53,522 bases of DNA from Candidatus Merdibacter merdigallinarum (GTDB lineage Bacteria; Bacillota_I; Bacilli_A; Erysipelotrichales; Erysipelotrichaceae). The stretch is from NCBI GenBank assembly GCA_019118705.1, contig DWYK01000172.1, forward strand, positions 1 through 53,522, given 5' to 3'. The translations under genes and the position numbers were made by a program. A model generated the notes under the pieces. That model saw nothing but the letters and a program-made list of their open reading frames with translations, was not told the origin of the DNA and searched no databases. Below, in pieces: positions 13,546-53,519 of this stretch (its first letter is position 1; every line of letters begins with the position of its first letter).

Positions 13546-13580
13546 AGATGCGTTCATTCGTAGGAAAGAAGGGGAAGACC

Positions 13581-16214
13581 ATGACAGCTTCAGAAACGCA
13601 GAGCGGAACAAGAGCACGGGAAACACAGATCGCACTGGGACTGCTGGCTCATGTGGATGCGGGAAAGACGACGCTGAGCGAGGGGCTTCTGTATCTGAGC
13701 GGCGCGATCCGCAAACGGGGCCGGGTCGATCATGGAGACAGTGCACTGGATTATGATCGTCAGGAACAGGCTCGCGGGATCACCATCTATGCCAAAGAAG
13801 CGTACATCACGCATCACGGGCACGGGTACACGCTGCTGGATACGCCGGGCCATGTGGATTTTTCCGCAGAGATGGAACGGACGCTGTCGGTGCTGGATTA
13901 TGCACTGGTGGTCATCAGCGCACTGGATGGCGTACAGGCCCATACCCGGACCATCTGGCAGCTGCTGGATCGCTATCAGATCCCCACGTTCATCTTTGTC
14001 AACAAGATGGACATCGCACATGACTCAAAAGAGGAACTGCTCGCAGAGCTGCAGCAGGAGCTCGATCCCCACTGTGTGCAGTTTTATCCGCACAACGATG
14101 CGCGGGATGAGGAAGCGGCCCTGTGCGATGATGACATGCTGGAACGGTTTCTGGCACAGGGGTCACTGCAGGAGGAAGAATTGACGGCGCTGATCCGGGA
14201 GCGCCGTCTGTTTCCGGTCTTTTTCGGCTCCGCCTTGCGGCTGGATGGTGTGGAAGCACTGCTGGATGCGCTGGATGCCCATACCTGCATGCCGGAATAT
14301 CCGGAGGTCTTTGGCGCCCGGATCTTCAAGGTCAGCAGTGATGAACAGGGCAACCGGCTGACCCATCTGAAGATCACCGGCGGCTCGCTGCGGGTGAAGA
14401 CCCGACTGTATCAGGAAGAGAAGGCCGATCAGCTGCGCCGTTACTGCGGCAGGGGCTATGAAATGCTTCCGGAGGCATCGGCCGGTATGATCGTCGCCGT
14501 GAAGGGCCTTCGTTCGCTGTATCCCGGAGAGGGGCTGGGGGCAGAGAGCGAAGCGATCCATCCGGTACTGACGCCGTATATGACGTATCAGCTGTACCCG
14601 GTGAGCGGCGGGGACCTGACCCAGCTGACCACGGCCTGCCGCCAGCTGGCACAGGAGGATCCGCTGCTGCATGTCACATTGTCTGCCGACCAAAAGCATC
14701 TGTATCTGCAGCTGATGGGAGAGATCCAGTGTGAGGTGCTCCTTCAACAGTTGAAAGACCGCTTTGGCATGGAGGTTCGCGTCGATGAAGGCAGCGTGCT
14801 CTACAAAGAGACGCTGGCAGAGCCGGTGGAAGGCGTCGGGCACTTTGAACCGCTGCGCCACTATGCGGAAGTGCATGTGCTGCTGGAGCCTCTGCCGCCG
14901 GGAAGCGGGATCGAGGTCGCCAGCCGCTGTTCACAGGATGTGCTGGCTGCCTCCTGGCAGCGTCTGATCCTGTCCCACATCTGTGAAAAGGAACATGTCG
15001 GTGTGCTGGGCGGCTTTTTGATCAGTGATCTGCGCATCACGCTGCTCAGCGGGAAAGCCCATCTGAAGCATACGGAAGGCGGTGATTTCCGCGAAGCGGT
15101 GTACCGGGCGATCCGCCAGGGCCTGCGCAGAGGAAAGAGCGTGCTGCTGGAACCGTATGGCAGCTTTCGCCTGGAAGTAAACGAGGAGAGCCTCAGCCGC
15201 GTCATATATGAGATCGAGCGCATCGACGGACAGTTTCAGCTGCAGGCATCGGATCTTGGCATGAGCGTACTGTCCGGCAGTGCACCGTTGGCGGGCCTGC
15301 AGAAGCTGGCCAGAGAGCTGCCTTCTCATACCAGGGGACGCGGACGTCTCTATCATACCTTTGACCGTTATCTGCCATGCCGTCACGCACAGGACGTGCT
15401 GGAAGCGCGTGCCTATGACTGTGACCGCGATGTCCAGGAGCCTTGTGGGTCGATCTTCTGCGCACAGGGCGCCGGCTTTTATGTGCCGTGGGATGAGGTG
15501 GAGAACTACATGCATCTGCCCTATGCCTATGTGCCAGAGCAGGAGGCGCCATCGCCGCGTCCGCATGCGGATACCTGTTCCTCCTCCCGTTCGACGGCAG
15601 CGAGCGACGAGGAACTGGAGGCGATCTTTGCGCGCACCTATGGAACGAAAAAGAAGAAGGTCAGCGACCGGGAGAGCTATGCGCGCCATGAACAGCAGCG
15701 CGCATCCGCACAGACCCGGCTGTTGCCGGAATGTCTGCTGGTCGACGGCTATAACATCATCCACGACTGGGAGGAACTGCAGACGATCGCCGTGAGCGAT
15801 CTGGCCGCGGCCCGTCATCGGCTCATCGATCTGATGTGCAGTTACCAGGGCTATCGCCGTTGTACCCTCATCCTCGTCTTTGACGCATATCAGGTAAAGG
15901 ATCAGGGAACGACGATGCAGCAGGTCGACAACATTTATGTCGTCTACACCAAAACGGCCCAGACGGCAGACAGCTATATCGAGCAGGCGACCCATCGCCT
16001 GGCTGAAGAGTATCGGGTGAGCGTCGCCACTTCGGACGGTCTGGAACAGCTGATCGCCATCGGGCAGGGCGCCATGCGGATCTCCGCCCGCGGCCTGCGG
16101 GAAGAGCTGATCCGTCTGCGGGCACAGGGCGAGGAAGCGGCATCCGCCTATCGAAGCAGCGGCTTTTCGCAGCCGCTGGCCGAGCTGCGAAACTGGGAAA
16201 AAGAGGATTCCTGA
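13581..16214 (+). CDS. TetM-like ribosome-protection GTPase fused to YacP/Rae1-like NYN nuclease
   Basis: This 877-residue protein has an EF-G/TetM-type body (about 1-640). Its GTPase motifs are AHVDAGKTT (G1), RGITI (G2), DTPGH (G3), NKMD (G4) and GSAL (G5), followed by domain II and IV/V-like regions. After a Ser/charged linker the last 165 residues are a NYN nuclease domain closely resembling YacP/Rae1: LLVDGYNIIHDW, LILVFDAY, ATSDGLEQ and GQGAMRISARGL. TetM-type factors bind the ribosomal A site to dislodge tetracycline, and Rae1 cuts mRNA in the A site, so the fusion would bring both to one place. The start at 13581 follows GAAGGGGAAG. Tetracycline resistance itself is not shown; many such proteins are housekeeping factors. 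Confidence 0.85.
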   Translation: MTASETQSGTRARETQIALGLLAHVDAGKTTLSEGLLYLSGAIRKRGRVDHGDSALDYDRQEQARGITIYAKEAYITHHGHGYTLLDTPGHVDFSAEMERTLSVLDYALVVISALDGVQAHTRTIWQLLDRYQIPTFIFVNKMDIAHDSKEELLAELQQELDPHCVQFYPHNDARDEEAALCDDDMLERFLAQGSLQEEELTALIRERRLFPVFFGSALRLDGVEALLDALDAHTCMPEYPEVFGARIFKVSSDEQGNRLTHLKITGGSLRVKTRLYQEEKADQLRRYCGRGYEMLPEASAGMIVAVKGLRSLYPGEGLGAESEAIHPVLTPYMTYQLYPVSGGDLTQLTTACRQLAQEDPLLHVTLSADQKHLYLQLMGEIQCEVLLQQLKDRFGMEVRVDEGSVLYKETLAEPVEGVGHFEPLRHYAEVHVLLEPLPPGSGIEVASRCSQDVLAASWQRLILSHICEKEHVGVLGGFLISDLRITLLSGKAHLKHTEGGDFREAVYRAIRQGLRRGKSVLLEPYGSFRLEVNEESLSRVIYEIERIDGQFQLQASDLGMSVLSGSAPLAGLQKLARELPSHTRGRGRLYHTFDRYLPCRHAQDVLEARAYDCDRDVQEPCGSIFCAQGAGFYVPWDEVENYMHLPYAYVPEQEAPSPRPHADTCSSSRSTAASDEELEAIFARTYGTKKKKVSDRESYARHEQQRASAQTRLLPECLLVDGYNIIHDWEELQTIAVSDLAAARHRLIDLMCSYQGYRRCTLILVFDAYQVKDQGTTMQQVDNIYVVYTKTAQTADSYIEQATHRLAEEYRVSVATSDGLEQLIAIGQGAMRISARGLREELIRLRAQGEEAASAYRSSGFSQPLAELRNWEKEDS

Positions 16215-16265: not shown

Positions 16266-16306
16266 GCAATTTTTTTGTGTTCCTCTTGTCCGAACCGCAC
16301 ATATTT

Positions 16307-16316
16307 GTGATATAAT
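16307..16316 (+). promoter_or_regulatory. Extended -10 promoter of the corA leader
   Basis: TGTGATATAAT contains the extended form TG-A-TATAAT (TATAAT at 16311-16316). A TTGTCC at 16286-16291 is 19 nt upstream, a long spacing. Transcription would start near 16323, giving a leader of about 125 nt. Confidence 0.6.
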
Positions 16317-16344
16317 AGCCGAGGAATGAAAGAAGGTGTTGTAT

Positions 16345-16419
16345 ATGGCTCCTGAGCCCGAAGCAAATTACCCGCTAGAACAGACAAGACAAAAGACACA
16401 GGAGGCATATGCAAGATGA
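16345..16419 (+). CDS. Upstream leader peptide of corA (24 aa, Pro/Glu-rich start)
   Basis: The 24-codon ORF begins MAPEPEANYPLEQ and ends EAYAR, with an AAGAAGGTG site at suitable distance. The alternating Pro and acidic residues at the N-terminus resemble the magnesium-sensing leader MgtL of enterobacteria, where such sequences destabilise ribosomes at low Mg2+. The stop codon (16417-16419) sits in the loop of a hairpin whose 3' arm can alternatively pair with the corA ribosome binding site. I infer a regulatory rather than a structural product. Confidence 0.55.
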   Translation: MAPEPEANYPLEQTRQKTQEAYAR

Positions 16420-16439
16420 TCCTCCTGTAAAAAAGGAGG
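16398..16439 (+). promoter_or_regulatory. Mutually exclusive hairpins controlling the corA ribosome binding site
   Basis: Three segments compete. A is ACAGGAGG (16398-16405, in the 3' part of the leader ORF), B is CCTCCTGT (16421-16428) and C is AGGAGG (16434-16439, the corA Shine-Dalgarno). A:B is a perfect 8-bp stem with a 15-nt loop and leaves C free. B:C is a 6-bp stem with a 7-nt loop and hides the ribosome binding site. Ribosome movement over A during translation of the leader peptide would shift the balance. Confidence 0.6.
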
Positions 16440-16447
16440 AAGAAAAC

Positions 16448-17398
16448 ATGCTGGAGTTTTACAAGACTTTTGACAATGTGACCAAGCGCATCGACCAGCC
16501 GGAACCTGGCTGCTGGATCAATGCGGTCTCTCCCGATGAGGAAGAAGTGGATTACCTCGTCCATACGATCGGCGTCCTGCCGGAATTCGTCAAGTCTTCA
16601 CTGGATGAGGAGGAGAGCTCTCACATCGATTACGATGACGATGAGAACCAGACGCTGATCATCGTCGACTACCCGAGCGCGGAAGACAGGGAAGATACCT
16701 ATGATGAGAATACGCTGCAGTACACGACGTTGCCATTGGGCGTCGTTATCATGAAAGGCTACATCATCACGATCTGTCTGCATGAAAATCTCAATATCGA
16801 GGACATGGCCAACGGCGTCGTCCGTGGCGTGCATACGGACATGAAGACGCGATTTTTGCTGTTGCTGCTGCTGCGGATCTCCCAGCGCTTTCTGATCTAT
16901 CTGCGTCAGATCGACCGGTTGTCTTCCCGCACCGAGCAGAAGCTGCATCAGTCGATGAAGAACGAAGAGCTGATCCAGATGCTGGGACTGGAGAAATCAC
17001 TGGTCTACTTCTCCACCTCGTTAAAGACCGATGAGATCGTGCTCAACAAGATCATGCGCGGTAAATTCATCAAGCTCTATGAAGAAGATCAGGATCTGCT
17101 GGATGATGTGCTGATCGAGATCCACCAGGCGATCGAGATGTGTAACATCTATTCCAACATCCTTTCCGGTACGATGGATGCCTTTGCATCGGTCATTTCC
17201 AACAACCTCAACATCGTCATGAAGGTGCTGACCGTCATCACGATCGTCATGGCGATCCCGAACATCATCTTTGGCTTCTATGGCATGAATGTCGGAGGTC
17301 TGCCGGTGGCACAGTCGTGGATCCCGCCGCTGATCATCGCGATCATCGCCATGGGCATCGCTACCTGGATCTTCATGAAAAAGGATATGTTTCACTGA
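16448..17398 (+). CDS. corA: CorA-family divalent cation (Mg2+) channel
   Basis: The 316-residue protein has a long acidic cytoplasmic N-terminal domain, a helical stalk (about 130-250) and two C-terminal membrane helices. The family motif YGMN (FGFYGMNVGGLP) ends the first membrane helix. Members form pentameric Mg2+ or Co2+ channels in the plasma membrane. The start at 16448 (MLEFYKTF) follows AAAAAGGAGGAAGAAAAC. An ATG at 16409 would start inside the regulatory hairpin loop and is not the likely start. Expression is probably controlled by the leader peptide and competing hairpins upstream. Confidence 0.92.
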   Translation: MLEFYKTFDNVTKRIDQPEPGCWINAVSPDEEEVDYLVHTIGVLPEFVKSSLDEEESSHIDYDDDENQTLIIVDYPSAEDREDTYDENTLQYTTLPLGVVIMKGYIITICLHENLNIEDMANGVVRGVHTDMKTRFLLLLLLRISQRFLIYLRQIDRLSSRTEQKLHQSMKNEELIQMLGLEKSLVYFSTSLKTDEIVLNKIMRGKFIKLYEEDQDLLDDVLIEIHQAIEMCNIYSNILSGTMDAFASVISNNLNIVMKVLTVITIVMAIPNIIFGFYGMNVGGLPVAQSWIPPLIIAIIAMGIATWIFMKKDMFH

Positions 17399-17460: not shown

Positions 17461-18954
17461 TCAGTCTTTGGATCGCCGGTGCCGACGGGCATGGGAGAGA
17501 AAGGCCGCAAGGAAGATCAGGATCGGATAGATCTCCAGACGCCCGATCAGCATGGCAAAGGACAATACGATCTTGGAGAGATCGGAGAACATGGAGAAGT
17601 TTCCCAGCGGACCGGCAATGCCGAGCCCTGGACCGACGTTGCCCAGACAGGAAAAGCAGGCAGAGACGGTGGATTCCATGTCAAAGTTGTCCAGGGATAC
17701 GATCAGCAGGATGATCACCAGGATCAGGATGTAACAGAAGAAGTAACTGCAGATCTGGTGGACGACGTTCTTGTCGATCACCTTGCCATCCATCGTGATG
17801 ACATCGACCTTCTGCGGATGCAGCAGGCGCTGCAGGTCCAGTTTGGTGCGCTTGAGCAGTACGGTCAGACGGCTGATCTTCAGACCGCCTGCGGTCGATC
17901 CGGCACAGGCACCGACAATCATCAGCGTGAGCAGGATCATCTTGGAAAACATTGGCCACAGATTGAAATCCGCCGTGGAATAACCGGTCGTCGAGATCAC
18001 CGTGGCAACCTGGAAGAAGGCGTAGCGAAATGCCTGCAACAGGGAGCCGTCATACAGCGAGAGGATGTTGAATGCGATCATCACCACACTGCAAGCGACG
18101 ATCAGCAGATACATGCGCAGTTCTTCATTGCGGAAGACGCTGCGGACGTTTTTGATCAGCAGAAAGTAGAACATGTTGAAGTTGATGCCAAACAGCAACA
18201 TGAACACGGCGATCACCATCTCCAGATAAACGCTGTCATAGAAGGCGATGCTGGTGTTCTTGATGGCAAAACCGCCGGTACCGGCCGTACCGAAGGTCGT
18301 GCACAGCGAATCGAACAAAGGCATGCCGCCCAGCAGCAGGAAGAGGACCATGACCGCGGTCAGCACCAGATAGATCTTATAGAGAATGGCTGCGCTCTCC
18401 CGCAGACGGGGCACCAGCTTGCCGATGATTGGTCCCGGTGCTTCTGCCCGCATGACGTGCATCATGCGGTCGTTGGAGCGGGGAACGATGGCGAGCAGAA
18501 AGACGAGGATGCCCATACCGCCGATCCAGTGTGTGAAGCTGCGCCAGAACAGAGAGGCGTTGGAGAGTGCCTCGACATCGGTCAGAATGCTGGAACCGGT
18601 CGTGGTAAATCCGGAGACCGTTTCAAAGAAACAGTCCACCAGGGAGGGAATCTCGTTGCTGAAGAAGAACGGAAGTCCTCCGAAGAAGGAAAGGATGATC
18701 CAGGTCAGACCAACGGCGATCATGCCTTCCTTTGCAAAATAAGAATGTTTGGATTTTAGGGCTGCCAGCGCAGCACCGCACACCAGACAGCACAGGATCG
18801 TGAGCAGATAGGCGTGCCACACCTGTTCGCCATAGAAGATGTCGACGATCAGCGGCAGTACGAGCAAAGCGCCCTCCATGAGGAGCGCATAGCCGATGAT
18901 GCTGCCGATGACGCGCCAGTTCAGCATATGCAGGCGACGGTTAAGCGAGAACAT
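17461..18954 (-). CDS. trkH: TrkH-family potassium uptake channel subunit
   Basis: The 497-residue membrane protein has the fourfold pore-loop repeat of the Trk/Ktr superfamily. Selectivity-filter segments are SGFTTTGSS, GTAGTGGFA, STTGYSTAD and LGNVGPGLG. It conducts K+ across the plasma membrane and is gated by the TrkA ring. I chose the ATG at 18954 (MFSLNRRLHMLNW), which has GCGGGAGA upstream and overlaps the 3' end of trkA by 14 nt. The later ATG at 18927 has no ribosome binding site. Overlap with trkA indicates translational coupling in one operon. Confidence 0.93.
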   Translation of the reverse strand: MFSLNRRLHMLNWRVIGSIIGYALLMEGALLVLPLIVDIFYGEQVWHAYLLTILCCLVCGAALAALKSKHSYFAKEGMIAVGLTWIILSFFGGLPFFFSNEIPSLVDCFFETVSGFTTTGSSILTDVEALSNASLFWRSFTHWIGGMGILVFLLAIVPRSNDRMMHVMRAEAPGPIIGKLVPRLRESAAILYKIYLVLTAVMVLFLLLGGMPLFDSLCTTFGTAGTGGFAIKNTSIAFYDSVYLEMVIAVFMLLFGINFNMFYFLLIKNVRSVFRNEELRMYLLIVACSVVMIAFNILSLYDGSLLQAFRYAFFQVATVISTTGYSTADFNLWPMFSKMILLTLMIVGACAGSTAGGLKISRLTVLLKRTKLDLQRLLHPQKVDVITMDGKVIDKNVVHQICSYFFCYILILVIILLIVSLDNFDMESTVSACFSCLGNVGPGLGIAGPLGNFSMFSDLSKIVLSFAMLIGRLEIYPILIFLAAFLSHARRHRRSKD

Positions 18955-20299
18955 CGTTGATCTCCCGCAGCCCCTGCAGCTGGCTGATGATGATGACCGT
19001 ATCGCCGATCGCGACCTGTGAGCTTCCAACGGCGATCGAAGCCTTTCCCTTACGGATGATATAGCTGACCAGAATGCCTTTTTTAAACTGCAGATCCTTC
19101 AGCGGACGGCCGATGAAGCGGCAGTTGTCCCGAACGCGGAACTCCAGCACTTCCACCTGATCGCCGACGATCTTCGTCAGTGACTCCACGCTGCTGCCCA
19201 GCGTGTTCTGCATCGCCCGCACATACTGGACGATCTGGTTGGCTGTCAGGTTTTTCGGAGTGATCGTGTTTTCCAGTCCCAGCCGTTCCAGCAGAAAGCC
19301 CAGCGCCATGCGGTTGACCTTCGGCAATACACGCGGAACGCCGTGGCTGGAAGCAAACATCGAGGTGATGACGTTTTCTTCGTCGTTGTCCGTCAGTGCG
19401 ATGAAGGCATCCATCTCCTCCAGACACTCGCTGAGCAGCAGTTCGTGGTCGGTGCCGTCTCCGTGGATGACCGTCAGCTGCGGGAAGCGTTCCACCAGCT
19501 CTTCACAGCGTTCGCTGCGCATCTCGATGACCTTGACGGCGATGCCCAGCTCCATCAGCATCGGAACCAGATAGAAGGTGATCTTGCCGCCGCCGATGAT
19601 CATGACCTCATGGATCGCCCGATGCTCGATGATGCCGGTCTCGCACAGGAATTTTTTCAGCTGTTTGGCCGTTGCGGTCAGCGTCACCTTGTCGTCCTTT
19701 TTCAGGATGGTGCTGCCATCCGGGATGATGACTTCTTCCTGGCGCTGGATCGCGACGAACTGCACCTGTGATTTCAGGGCATTGTCGACCTGATGGATGG
19801 CCCGCTCGATCAGCGGGCTGTTCTCCCGGATCTTGATCTCCGCCAGTTCCATGCGTCCCTTCGCAAAGGAGCTCACCTTGACGCTGTTGGCAAAATTCAG
19901 CGAACGCACGATCTCTCTGGCAGCGGTCTGTTCCGGATTGATCTGCATGCTCAGACCGAGATCTTCCTTCAACATGCGCAGTCCGCGGACATACTCCGGG
20001 TTGCGGATGCGGGCGATCGTATGGTCCGCTCCCATCTTTTTGGCCAGCAGACAGCTGATGATGTTGATCTCATCGCTGGAAGTCGCTGCGATGACCAGAT
20101 CGGCCTGATCGACCTGCGCCTCTTTGAGGACATCGTAGTTGCAGCCGTTTCCCTGAATGCCGACGACATCCAGCACATTCATCGTCAGGTTCAGCACCTG
20201 CGGTTTGTTTTCGATGATCGTGATATCATATCCCTCATGGCTCAGCTGCTTGGCGATCGCGAAGCCGACCTTGCCATCCCCGATGATGACGATTTTCAT
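18941..20299 (-). CDS. trkA: TrkA, peripheral NAD-binding K+ uptake regulator
   Basis: The 452-residue protein contains two RCK units in tandem. Each begins with a Rossmann glycine motif (MKIVIIGDGKVGFAIAKQL at residues 1-19, and EVMIIGGGKITFYLV near 230) and is followed by a TrkA-C domain. A single chain with two RCK copies is the TrkA form, unlike the shorter KtrA. It binds NAD(H) or ATP and gates TrkH. The start follows CTGGGGAGAAC. It is the first gene of the trkA-trkH operon, with a promoter about 45 nt upstream. Confidence 0.95.
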   Translation of the reverse strand: MKIVIIGDGKVGFAIAKQLSHEGYDITIIENKPQVLNLTMNVLDVVGIQGNGCNYDVLKEAQVDQADLVIAATSSDEINIISCLLAKKMGADHTIARIRNPEYVRGLRMLKEDLGLSMQINPEQTAAREIVRSLNFANSVKVSSFAKGRMELAEIKIRENSPLIERAIHQVDNALKSQVQFVAIQRQEEVIIPDGSTILKKDDKVTLTATAKQLKKFLCETGIIEHRAIHEVMIIGGGKITFYLVPMLMELGIAVKVIEMRSERCEELVERFPQLTVIHGDGTDHELLLSECLEEMDAFIALTDNDEENVITSMFASSHGVPRVLPKVNRMALGFLLERLGLENTITPKNLTANQIVQYVRAMQNTLGSSVESLTKIVGDQVEVLEFRVRDNCRFIGRPLKDLQFKKGILVSYIIRKGKASIAVGSSQVAIGDTVIIISQLQGLREINDVLA

Positions 20300-25740: not shown

Positions 25741-25754
25741 AAAGGTGCATAAAA

Positions 25755-25867
25755 TAAAACTTCGGGGCAGAGTGAAATTCTCGACTGGCGGTAAACTCCG
25801 CGAACCTACGGGTGGAACCGGTGCAACTCCGGTAGCAACAGTGAAAGTCTGGATGGAAGAAGTTTTT
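25755..25867 (+). ncRNA. FMN riboswitch (RFN element)
   Basis: The conserved RFN blocks are all present: CTTCGGGGCAGAGTGAAAT, CGACTGGCGGTAAACTCCGCGA, ACCGGTGCAACTCCGGTAGC and GTCTGGATGGAAGAAG. P1 is closed by AAAACTTC against the GAAGAAGTTTT end. It binds FMN and should switch off the downstream riboflavin transporter when flavin is plentiful. Confidence 0.96.
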
Positions 25868-25918
25868 GTCGTTGATCACGGGCATCCTTTTTTGATCTGC
25901 CCTTGCGTCATCGTGCTC

Positions 25919-34817: not shown

Positions 34818-35034
34818 AATAAGAGTTTAGAGGCAGCAATGTATCAGAGTACCAGCGGGAGCCGGCAGGCGATGAACGGTGGGAAAGGTAACCATTGCCG
34901 AAGGAGAAATGTCGGCGGACATCATCCTGGGGCTGCAGGGAATACTTGCAGCACTCCTTCATAAGCATTTATGAAGAGGCGCTATTAGAGGACCAGATCA
35001 GATCAGGAGTCGTGCTAATAGCATGGCTCTTATT
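34818..35034 (+). ncRNA. Lysine riboswitch (L box)
   Basis: Conserved L-box blocks are readable: TTTAGAGGCAGC at the 5' junction, GTGGGAAAGGTAACCAT, GCCGAAGGAGAAAT, CTGGGGCTGCAGGGAATACTTGCAGC, and the final TTCATAAGCATTTATGAAGAGG arm. AATAAGAG (34818-34825) pairs with CTCTTATT (35027-35034). A second stem GCTATTAG/CTAATAGC (34981-34988 with 35014-35021) lies just before the latter and probably forms the terminator side of the switch. It should repress the downstream transporter at high lysine. Confidence 0.88.
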
Positions 35035-52895: not shown

Positions 52896-52972
52896 GCGCC
52901 CATAGCTCAACTGGATAGAGCGTTTGACTACGGATCAAAAGGTTGTGGGTTCGATTCCTGCTGGGCGCGCCA
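52896..52972 (+). tRNA. tRNA-Arg(ACG)
   Basis: A 77-nt cloverleaf with acceptor GCGCCCA/TGGGCGC, anticodon ACG at 52930-52932 in loop CTACGGA, T-loop GTTCGATTC and encoded CCA. The first A is expected to be edited to inosine. Confidence 0.96.
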
Positions 52973-52989
52973 TTTTTTAGTTAAGAAAG

Positions 52990-53066
52990 CGGGACGTAGC
53001 ACAGCTTGGTAGTGCACTTGATTTGGGATCAAGGGGTCGCAGGTTCAAATCCTGTCGTCCCGACCA
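52990..53066 (+). tRNA. tRNA-Pro(TGG)
   Basis: Acceptor CGGGACG/CGTCCCG, anticodon TGG in loop TTTGGGA, T-loop GTTCAAATC and encoded CCA. Confidence 0.96.
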
Positions 53067-53079
53067 GAAGAAAAGAAAC

Positions 53080-53156
53080 GGCTGGGTAGCTTAGCTGGCT
53101 AGAGCATCCGGTTCATACCCGGAAGGTCGTGAGTTCGAGTCTCACTCCAGCCACCA
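53080..53156 (+). tRNA. tRNA-Met(CAT), elongator
   Basis: Acceptor GGCTGG/CCAGCC, anticodon CAT in loop TTCATAC, T-loop GTTCGAGTC and encoded CCA. The loop context (TTCATAC) matches elongator Met rather than the Ile2 type. Confidence 0.9.
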
Positions 53157-53166
53157 AATGAGATAA

Positions 53167-53243
53167 GGACCCTTAGCTCAGTTGGTCAGAGCATCCGGCT
53201 CATAACCGGTGGGTCGTAGGTTCGAGTCCTACAGGGTCCACCA
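53167..53243 (+). tRNA. tRNA-Ile2(CAT, lysidine-modified) - probable
   Basis: Acceptor GGACCC/GGGTCC, anticodon CAT in loop CTCATAA, T-loop GTTCGAGTC and encoded CCA. Body and loop resemble Bacillus tRNA-Ile2, in which C34 becomes lysidine by TilS and reads AUA. Elongator Met is the alternative. Confidence 0.8.
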
Positions 53244-53257
53244 GAAAGGAAAGAGAT

Positions 53258-53348
53258 GGAGGAATACCCAAGTGGTTGAAGGGTCCGGTCTTGAAAACCG
53301 GTAGGTCGTGAGAGCGGCGCCTGGGTTCGAATCCCAGTTCCTCCGCCA
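53258..53348 (+). tRNA. tRNA-Ser(TGA)
   Basis: A 91-nt class II tRNA with a long variable arm. Acceptor GGAGGAA/TTCCTCC, anticodon TGA in loop CTTGAAA, and encoded CCA. Confidence 0.96.
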
Positions 53349-53363
53349 GAAAAGAAAAGACAT

Positions 53364-53440
<77 letters not shown>

Positions 53441-53443
53441 AAA

Positions 53444-53519
53444 GGTCTCGTAGCTCAGTCGGTAGAGCAAAGGACTGAAAATCCTTGTGTCGTTGGTTCG
53501 ATTCCGACCGAGACCACCA
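53444..53519 (+). tRNA. tRNA-Phe(GAA)
   Basis: Acceptor GGTCTCG/CGAGACC, anticodon GAA in loop CTGAAAA, T-loop GTTCGATTC and encoded CCA. It ends 3 nt before the window edge, so the cluster probably continues. Confidence 0.96.

Follow-up and report, generated by a model that had tools for sequence, protein, structure and literature searches.

The corA locus and its leader

The window analyzed here is the whole 53,522-nt stretch of contig DWYK01000172.1 of Candidatus Merdibacter merdigallinarum. A gene for a CorA-family Mg2+ transporter is preceded in it by a short upstream open reading frame (uORF) and by four segments, S1 to S4, with alternative pairing partners. The elements of the locus and its flanking genes are as follows.

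13548-16214, + strand: one 888-aa protein that joins an EF-G-like GTPase (GTP_EFTU, EFG_III, EFG_IV, EFG_C) to a YacP-like NYN nuclease domain
16286-16291, + strand: weak -35 element TTGTCC, spaced 19 nt from the -10 element TGATATAAT
16308..16316, + strand: probable extended -10 promoter element TGATATAAT, by inspection
16330..16338, + strand: uORF Shine-Dalgarno AAGAAGGTG; across 35 leaders GGTG never varies and the A/G positions before it hardly do
16345..16419, + strand: leader peptide uORF of 24 codons, MAPEPEANYPLEQTRQKTQEAYAR (MAPEPEANY...), with ATG at 16345-16347 and TGA at 16417-16419
16336..16354, + strand: S1, the end of the uORF Shine-Dalgarno, the start codon, and codons 2-3; pairs with S2 (fold, covariation)
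16398..16414, + strand: S2, ACAGGAGGCAUAUGCAA, including ACAGGAGG at 16398-16405; partner S1 or S3 (fold, covariation)
16421..16428, + strand: S3, CCUCCUGU / CCTCCTGT, anti-Shine-Dalgarno; partner S2 or S4 (fold, covariation)
16434..16439, + strand: S4, the corA Shine-Dalgarno AGGAGG (sequence, conservation, modeled accessibility)
16448..17398, + strand: corA, CorA-family Mg2+ transporter, 316 aa (Pfam PF01544, E 4e-49)
17461-20299, - strand: genes for potassium uptake (TrkH, TrkA), convergent with corA

Close relatives carry a TATAAT-like -10 element, mostly of the extended kind, in the corresponding position ahead of the uORF (by inspection); a consensus promoter scan with 16- to 18-nt spacing did not call the candidate -10 at 16308..16316. 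Given the position of this element before the uORF, the corA leader would be about 125 nt long. An in-frame upstream start for corA, the ATG at 16409 (MQDDPPVKKEEEN...), is absent from relatives and was taken as a chance occurrence. No intrinsic terminator was found in the window's corA leader. The corA product is the sole CorA-like match in the genome. Searches of the genome, which is 86% complete, yielded neither MgtE nor an M-box, in keeping with a role of CorA as a main regulated importer; a gene for bL31 is present.

The initial annotation of this DNA had described the 24-codon uORF with its own Shine-Dalgarno and three segments, all of which we confirmed in the sequence. It had also proposed a hairpin switch over the corA Shine-Dalgarno; the pairings that it named are present and conserved, but it overlooked a fourth segment, S1, at the start of the uORF. 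In the three-segment scheme, which lacks S1:S2, nothing would keep S2 occupied by default, and the scheme is therefore incomplete. Its view that no known riboswitch core fits the leader agrees with our search, in which no Rfam family reached the gathering score and a permissive threshold gave chance matches (E near 5).

Predicted fold and modeled ribosome positions

In the predicted resting fold of the window leader (-34.3 kcal/mol; z = -3.2 versus shuffles), the dominant feature is a long-range pairing between 16336-16354, at the uORF start, and 16398-16414. The leader is laid out as a four-segment relay with its ORF over segment 1: the predicted closed form combines S1:S2 with S3:S4 and hides the corA Shine-Dalgarno, and the predicted open form consists of S2:S3 and exposes it. 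When leader bodies were shuffled, 0/200 matched the window's pairing with the corA Shine-Dalgarno and 0/200 matched its pairing with the uORF start.

We modeled ribosome positions by masking a static fold, assuming a ribosome footprint of 14 nt on each side of the P-site nucleotide. Modeled Shine-Dalgarno accessibility of the window leader was 0.00 when ribosome-free and 0.52 when a ribosome occupied codon 5. Across 35 leaders, the median was 0.00 with no ribosome and 0.42 to 0.46 with one at codon 1, 3, or 5; it was 0.18 for codon 7 and 0.00 when the ribosome stood on S2, and the highest value of all states, 0.83, came with a ribosome at the uORF stop. An early-held ribosome would thus open corA and a ribosome on S2 would close it, as far as a static model can tell; in L002, L135, and L138, masking codon 5 barely opens the Shine-Dalgarno in this crude treatment. 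It had been suggested in the initial annotation that early ribosome drop-off switches corA on and full translation switches it off. The logic is the same as that shown experimentally for Salmonella mgtQ/mgtB (PMC8092293). The model also exposes the Shine-Dalgarno when the ribosome stands at the stop codon.

Conservation of the leader within Erysipelotrichales

The corA orthologues of the nearest relatives are preceded by the same leader. We searched 295 genomes of the same order with the pattern GGTG-N4-7-ATG-NCNCC-NGANCC, using the reversed pattern as a control, and obtained 42 matches, against 0 for the control. Thirty-three of the 42 are short uORFs of the form M-[SAT]-P-[ED]-P directly before corA (CorA 62-100% identical), and the link of the true uORF matches to corA is exclusive across the 295 genomes (33/33). 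The other 9 have neither corA nor the switch beside them, lie in unrelated surroundings, and were rejected as chance.

An alignment of 35 distinct leaders, including L036 and L039 from the scan of named genomes described below, shows that Pro3 and Pro5 are invariant (35/35) and that Asp or Glu occupies position 4 in 34/35. Codon 2 is Ser, Ala, or Thr and never Glu, and the peptide is unconserved from codon 7 onwards. Position 3 makes use of all four Pro codons, position 5 of three, and position 4 of all four acidic codons, and S2 falls in all three reading frames of the uORF (21, 10, and 4 leaders); this third-base variation, together with the frame-free position of S2, indicates that the N-terminus is conserved as a peptide and S2 as RNA. 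As a rule the uORF is 20-27 codons long, and in nearly all leaders no more than about 12 nt separate its stop from S3. The conservation across 35 leaders, together with the covariation of two of the three pairings, argues most strongly against a chance arrangement. The architecture and conservation of the leader are thus well supported; conservation of the small ORF and of both pairings in relatives, which the initial annotation had set as a test, holds across the 35 leaders.

The single exception at position 4 is L036 (leader 1399-1503; MSPVPERANRRK), which has Val4 in place of Asp/Glu and whose uORF ends before S2, yet S2 to S4 are kept. Among more divergent orthologues within the order, L011 (MKEDPYSHD) retains the motif and six more distant ones are without it. 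The L011 leader (minus strand, upstream of corA) has the start region GAUGAUCG, S2 CGAUCAUCGAAGGAA, and S3 UUUCCUUCGAU plus a Shine-Dalgarno; the four-segment scheme seems to be kept there despite the different sequence.

Covariation of the pairings

Covariation was counted on the segment alignment and compared with shuffles; slid registers pair in 35-64% of cells. For S1:S2, 81% of cells are paired and 39 are doubly changed, versus 21.5 (sd 3.3) in shuffled alignments (0/500 as high); for S2:S3, the corresponding values are 80% and 35 versus 8.7 (sd 3.9; 0/500), and for S3:S4, 77% and 24 versus 19 (34/500), although such shuffle controls overstate significance for related sequences. Because kinship inflates these tests, ten divergent leaders (<62% similarity) were tested on their own by comparing cognate with cross-species duplex strength: permutations as good as the cognate set numbered 34/20000 for S1:S2, 0/20000 for S2:S3, and a marginal 1050/20000 for S3:S4. 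S1:S2 and S2:S3 covary, and S3:S4 does so weakly, as expected from a Shine-Dalgarno that hardly varies.

A similar peptide start before corA in Clostridia

The named-genome scan covered 80 corA loci (Erysipelotrichales, Coriobacteria, and mostly Clostridia). With Erysipelotrichales and Coriobacteria left out, 46 of the 56 loci, mostly from Clostridia, have one Shine-Dalgarno-led short ORF, 20-320 nt upstream of corA, with Asp/Glu-Pro at codons 4-5; examples, with start codons read as Met, are MSPDPSGS, MNPDPGS, MSGDPLSR, MKADPLG, and MTADPCG. Control ORFs with Asp/Glu-Pro at these codons numbered 2/278 further upstream and 1/345 inside and downstream of corA (total, 3/623), giving a Fisher P of about 1e-20 and below, a statistic that ignores kinship. 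Most of the Clostridia members carry just one acidic residue close to the N-terminus, Asp4. The motif ORF was found in 0/15 corA loci of Coriobacteria and in 0/22 readable corA loci of other Bacilli lineages.

Leaders of the Flavonifractor type have the uORF followed by an intrinsic-terminator-like hairpin, e.g., CCCGCACGCCTG ... AGGTGTGCGGGG-ATTTTT, which suggests transcription attenuation using the same peptide sensor; one peptide start would then be joined to different outputs. The order of uORF (mostly VSGDPLSR...), GC-rich hairpin, and T-run was seen in L073, L081, L088, L091, L092, L094, L095, L097, L101, and L106. For the short Clostridia leaders, where the choice of Shine-Dalgarno was crude, a clean Shine-Dalgarno-masking relay was not established.

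The 46 Clostridia-type uORFs (L038, L054-L110) also differ in codon usage from the corA genes of the same loci. Ser at codons 6-11 is AGT in 43/50 cases, versus 41/979 in corA, and Arg at codons 6-11 is CGA in 29/44, versus 17/487; Ser at codon 2 is mostly AGC, and from codon 12 onwards the bias is lost (AGT 3/36, CGA 2/60). A weaker AGT/CGA bias is present in the Erysipelotrichales type. As a test of a fixed RNA word, the frames of the k-mers were compared: they fall mostly in one frame in Clostridia, and CGAA falls mostly in another frame in Erysipelotrichales. The bias may reflect slow decoding just past Asp-Pro, or else a constraint on the RNA.

Comparison with known systems

The closest known counterpart is Salmonella mgtQ/mgtB, in which a short uORF with Asp2 and Glu5 is coupled to a relay of 1:2 plus 3:4 versus 2:3, with the mgtB ribosome-binding site in segment 4; experiments showed that acidic codons raise mgtB translation and that bL31 opposes this, and slowing or destabilization of the ribosome gives 2:3, the ON state (PMC8092293). 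The corA leader has the corresponding parts: early acidic and Pro codons conserved in the peptide, the identical four-segment topology of mutually exclusive pairings (3:4 covariation being weak), and the ribosome-binding site of a Mg2+ transporter gene, here corA, in segment 4. It differs in that mgtQ has 8 codons, lies in an operon's intergenic region, and controls MgtB in Proteobacteria, whereas the corA uORF has 20-27 codons as a rule, lies at the 5' end of the corA transcript in Bacillota, and has its start codon covered by S1. The phylum and the transporter family differ from those of mgtQ, the peptide is too short to decide on common descent, and convergence is likely.

MgtL of mgtA (Escherichia coli and Salmonella) begins E2-P3-D4-P5; this motif causes ribosomes to drop off at low Mg2+, which is linked to the ON state (PMC11282234). 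The initial annotation had likened the corA peptide to MgtL, and the likeness covers residues 3-5: P-[DE]-P occupies the same codons as Pro3-Asp4-Pro5 of MgtL, also before a Mg2+ importer gene, with Glu2 of the MgtL EPDP (codons 2-5) replaced by Ser/Ala/Thr. MgtL acts via Rho-dependent transcription termination, whereas the anatomy of the corA leader points to Shine-Dalgarno masking, with no Rho step indicated. Before corA itself in Salmonella and E. coli, efficient translation of the corL uORF lowers corA; corL differs in being poorer in acidic and Pro residues, in forming a three-way junction, and in being controlled through Rho (PMC11552253). As published, the corA RNA motif occurs in Gammaproteobacteria only (PMC6429828).

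The topology of 1:2 plus 3:4 versus 2:3, with the ribosome-binding site in segment 4, is also that of the ermC-type translational attenuator. Attenuators of this type, mentioned in PMC2965389, differ in relying on drug-dependent stalling inside another leader peptide and in targeting a resistance gene. The corA leader appears, then, to work like mgtQ, to share the start motif of MgtL, and to control the target of corL, and we claim homology to none of them. Control of Mg2+ uptake in Bacillota is usually ascribed to the M-box (RF00380); regulation by M-box and MgtE likewise acts at the RNA level, with an aptamer and without a uORF. We found no report of a leader of the present kind in Bacillota in the literature searched, the coverage of which was limited, so that this is absence of evidence only.

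Interpretation and alternatives

Our preferred reading, which we consider probable, is that the leader is a leader-peptide translational attenuator of corA in which ribosome destabilization raises CorA at low Mg2+. We infer that the uORF is translated and that events would run as follows. With no ribosome on the leader, S1 would pair with S2 and S3 with S4, hiding the corA Shine-Dalgarno. A ribosome slowed or destabilized at Pro3-Asp/Glu4-Pro5(-Asp/Glu6) would keep S1 covered without reaching S2; S2, being free, would capture S3, and corA would be translated. A normally elongating ribosome would instead cross S2, so that S3:S4 could form and corA would be off. Low Mg2+ destabilizes ribosomes on acidic/Pro N-termini in enterobacteria, and by this comparison we infer a response to Mg2+ in which a shortage of intracellular Mg2+ should increase CorA through the switch. 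Destabilization is usually linked to multi-acidic motifs, which are more acidic than the single Asp4 of most Clostridia members.

The proximity of the uORF stop to S3 and the modeled peak of accessibility with a ribosome at that stop, which a simple attenuator does not need, fit termination-reinitiation or translational coupling, in which S3:S4 would be opened by ribosomes that end the uORF on or beside S3, the same or another ribosome would start corA, and corA would follow uORF translation. We regard this as rather unlikely, since it leaves the covarying S1:S2 and S2:S3 and the conserved Pro-Asp/Glu-Pro start without a role, and since a failure of ribosomes on the uORF would lower corA, which, if low Mg2+ is the signal, is the opposite of what a Mg2+ importer calls for. 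The attenuator could also be kept and its signal changed, with the uORF sensing another translation stress such as proline-tRNA charging, EF-P/ABC-F activity, or a ribosome-targeting drug. Pro5 is invariant, as is Pro3 in the Erysipelotrichales type, drug-sensing leaders classically have this ermC-like topology, and EF-P reportedly affects Salmonella mgtA (PMC6460261); against these stand the presence of just one or two, nonadjacent prolines, the equal conservation of the acidic residue before Pro5, and the placement of all true uORF matches before a Mg2+ transporter gene, and we give this explanation a small chance. Very unlikely, and the least probable of all, is an ion- or ligand-binding riboswitch in which the uORF is incidental: a folded and conserved leader of 125 nt before a metal transporter gene would suit one, but it has no Rfam match and no conserved unpaired core (codon 7 to S2 is unconserved), its conservation is at the peptide level with synonymous variation, and the peptide motif persists across leaders of different RNA structure.

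A translational attenuator responding to Mg2+ remains our preferred reading, and extending it to the whole family is a tentative step. Possibly, though we would not yet bet on it, the leader peptides before corA in Erysipelotrichales and Clostridia belong to a single class of ribosome-based Mg2+ sensors, widespread and so far undescribed. Sensing would fall to D/E4-P5 together with the wobble-decoded, locally rare codons that directly follow it (AGU, CGA), so that decoding speed and nascent chain together read Mg2+, and the outputs would be interchangeable: a Shine-Dalgarno-masking relay in Erysipelotrichales and an intrinsic terminator in the Flavonifractor type.

Relatives share the uORF and the switch, and most Clostridia examined have a similar peptide ahead of corA, so that sensing of magnesium by the ribosome, documented in enterobacteria, is probable in these bacteria too. 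If so, many gut Bacillota would let the ribosome report low Mg2+ to control the CorA importer, and the Pro3-Asp4-Pro5 start common to MgtL would be either a striking convergence or of very old ancestry. Dozens of natural variants, in which the sensor is separable from the output, would offer material on ribosome destabilization by short acidic/Pro chains. The outcome is one small regulatory RNA that is directly testable.

Other elements in the window

Elsewhere in the window, all on the + strand, lie an FMN riboswitch (25754-25868), a lysine riboswitch (34820-34992), and, at the window end, seven clustered tRNA genes (52896-53516).
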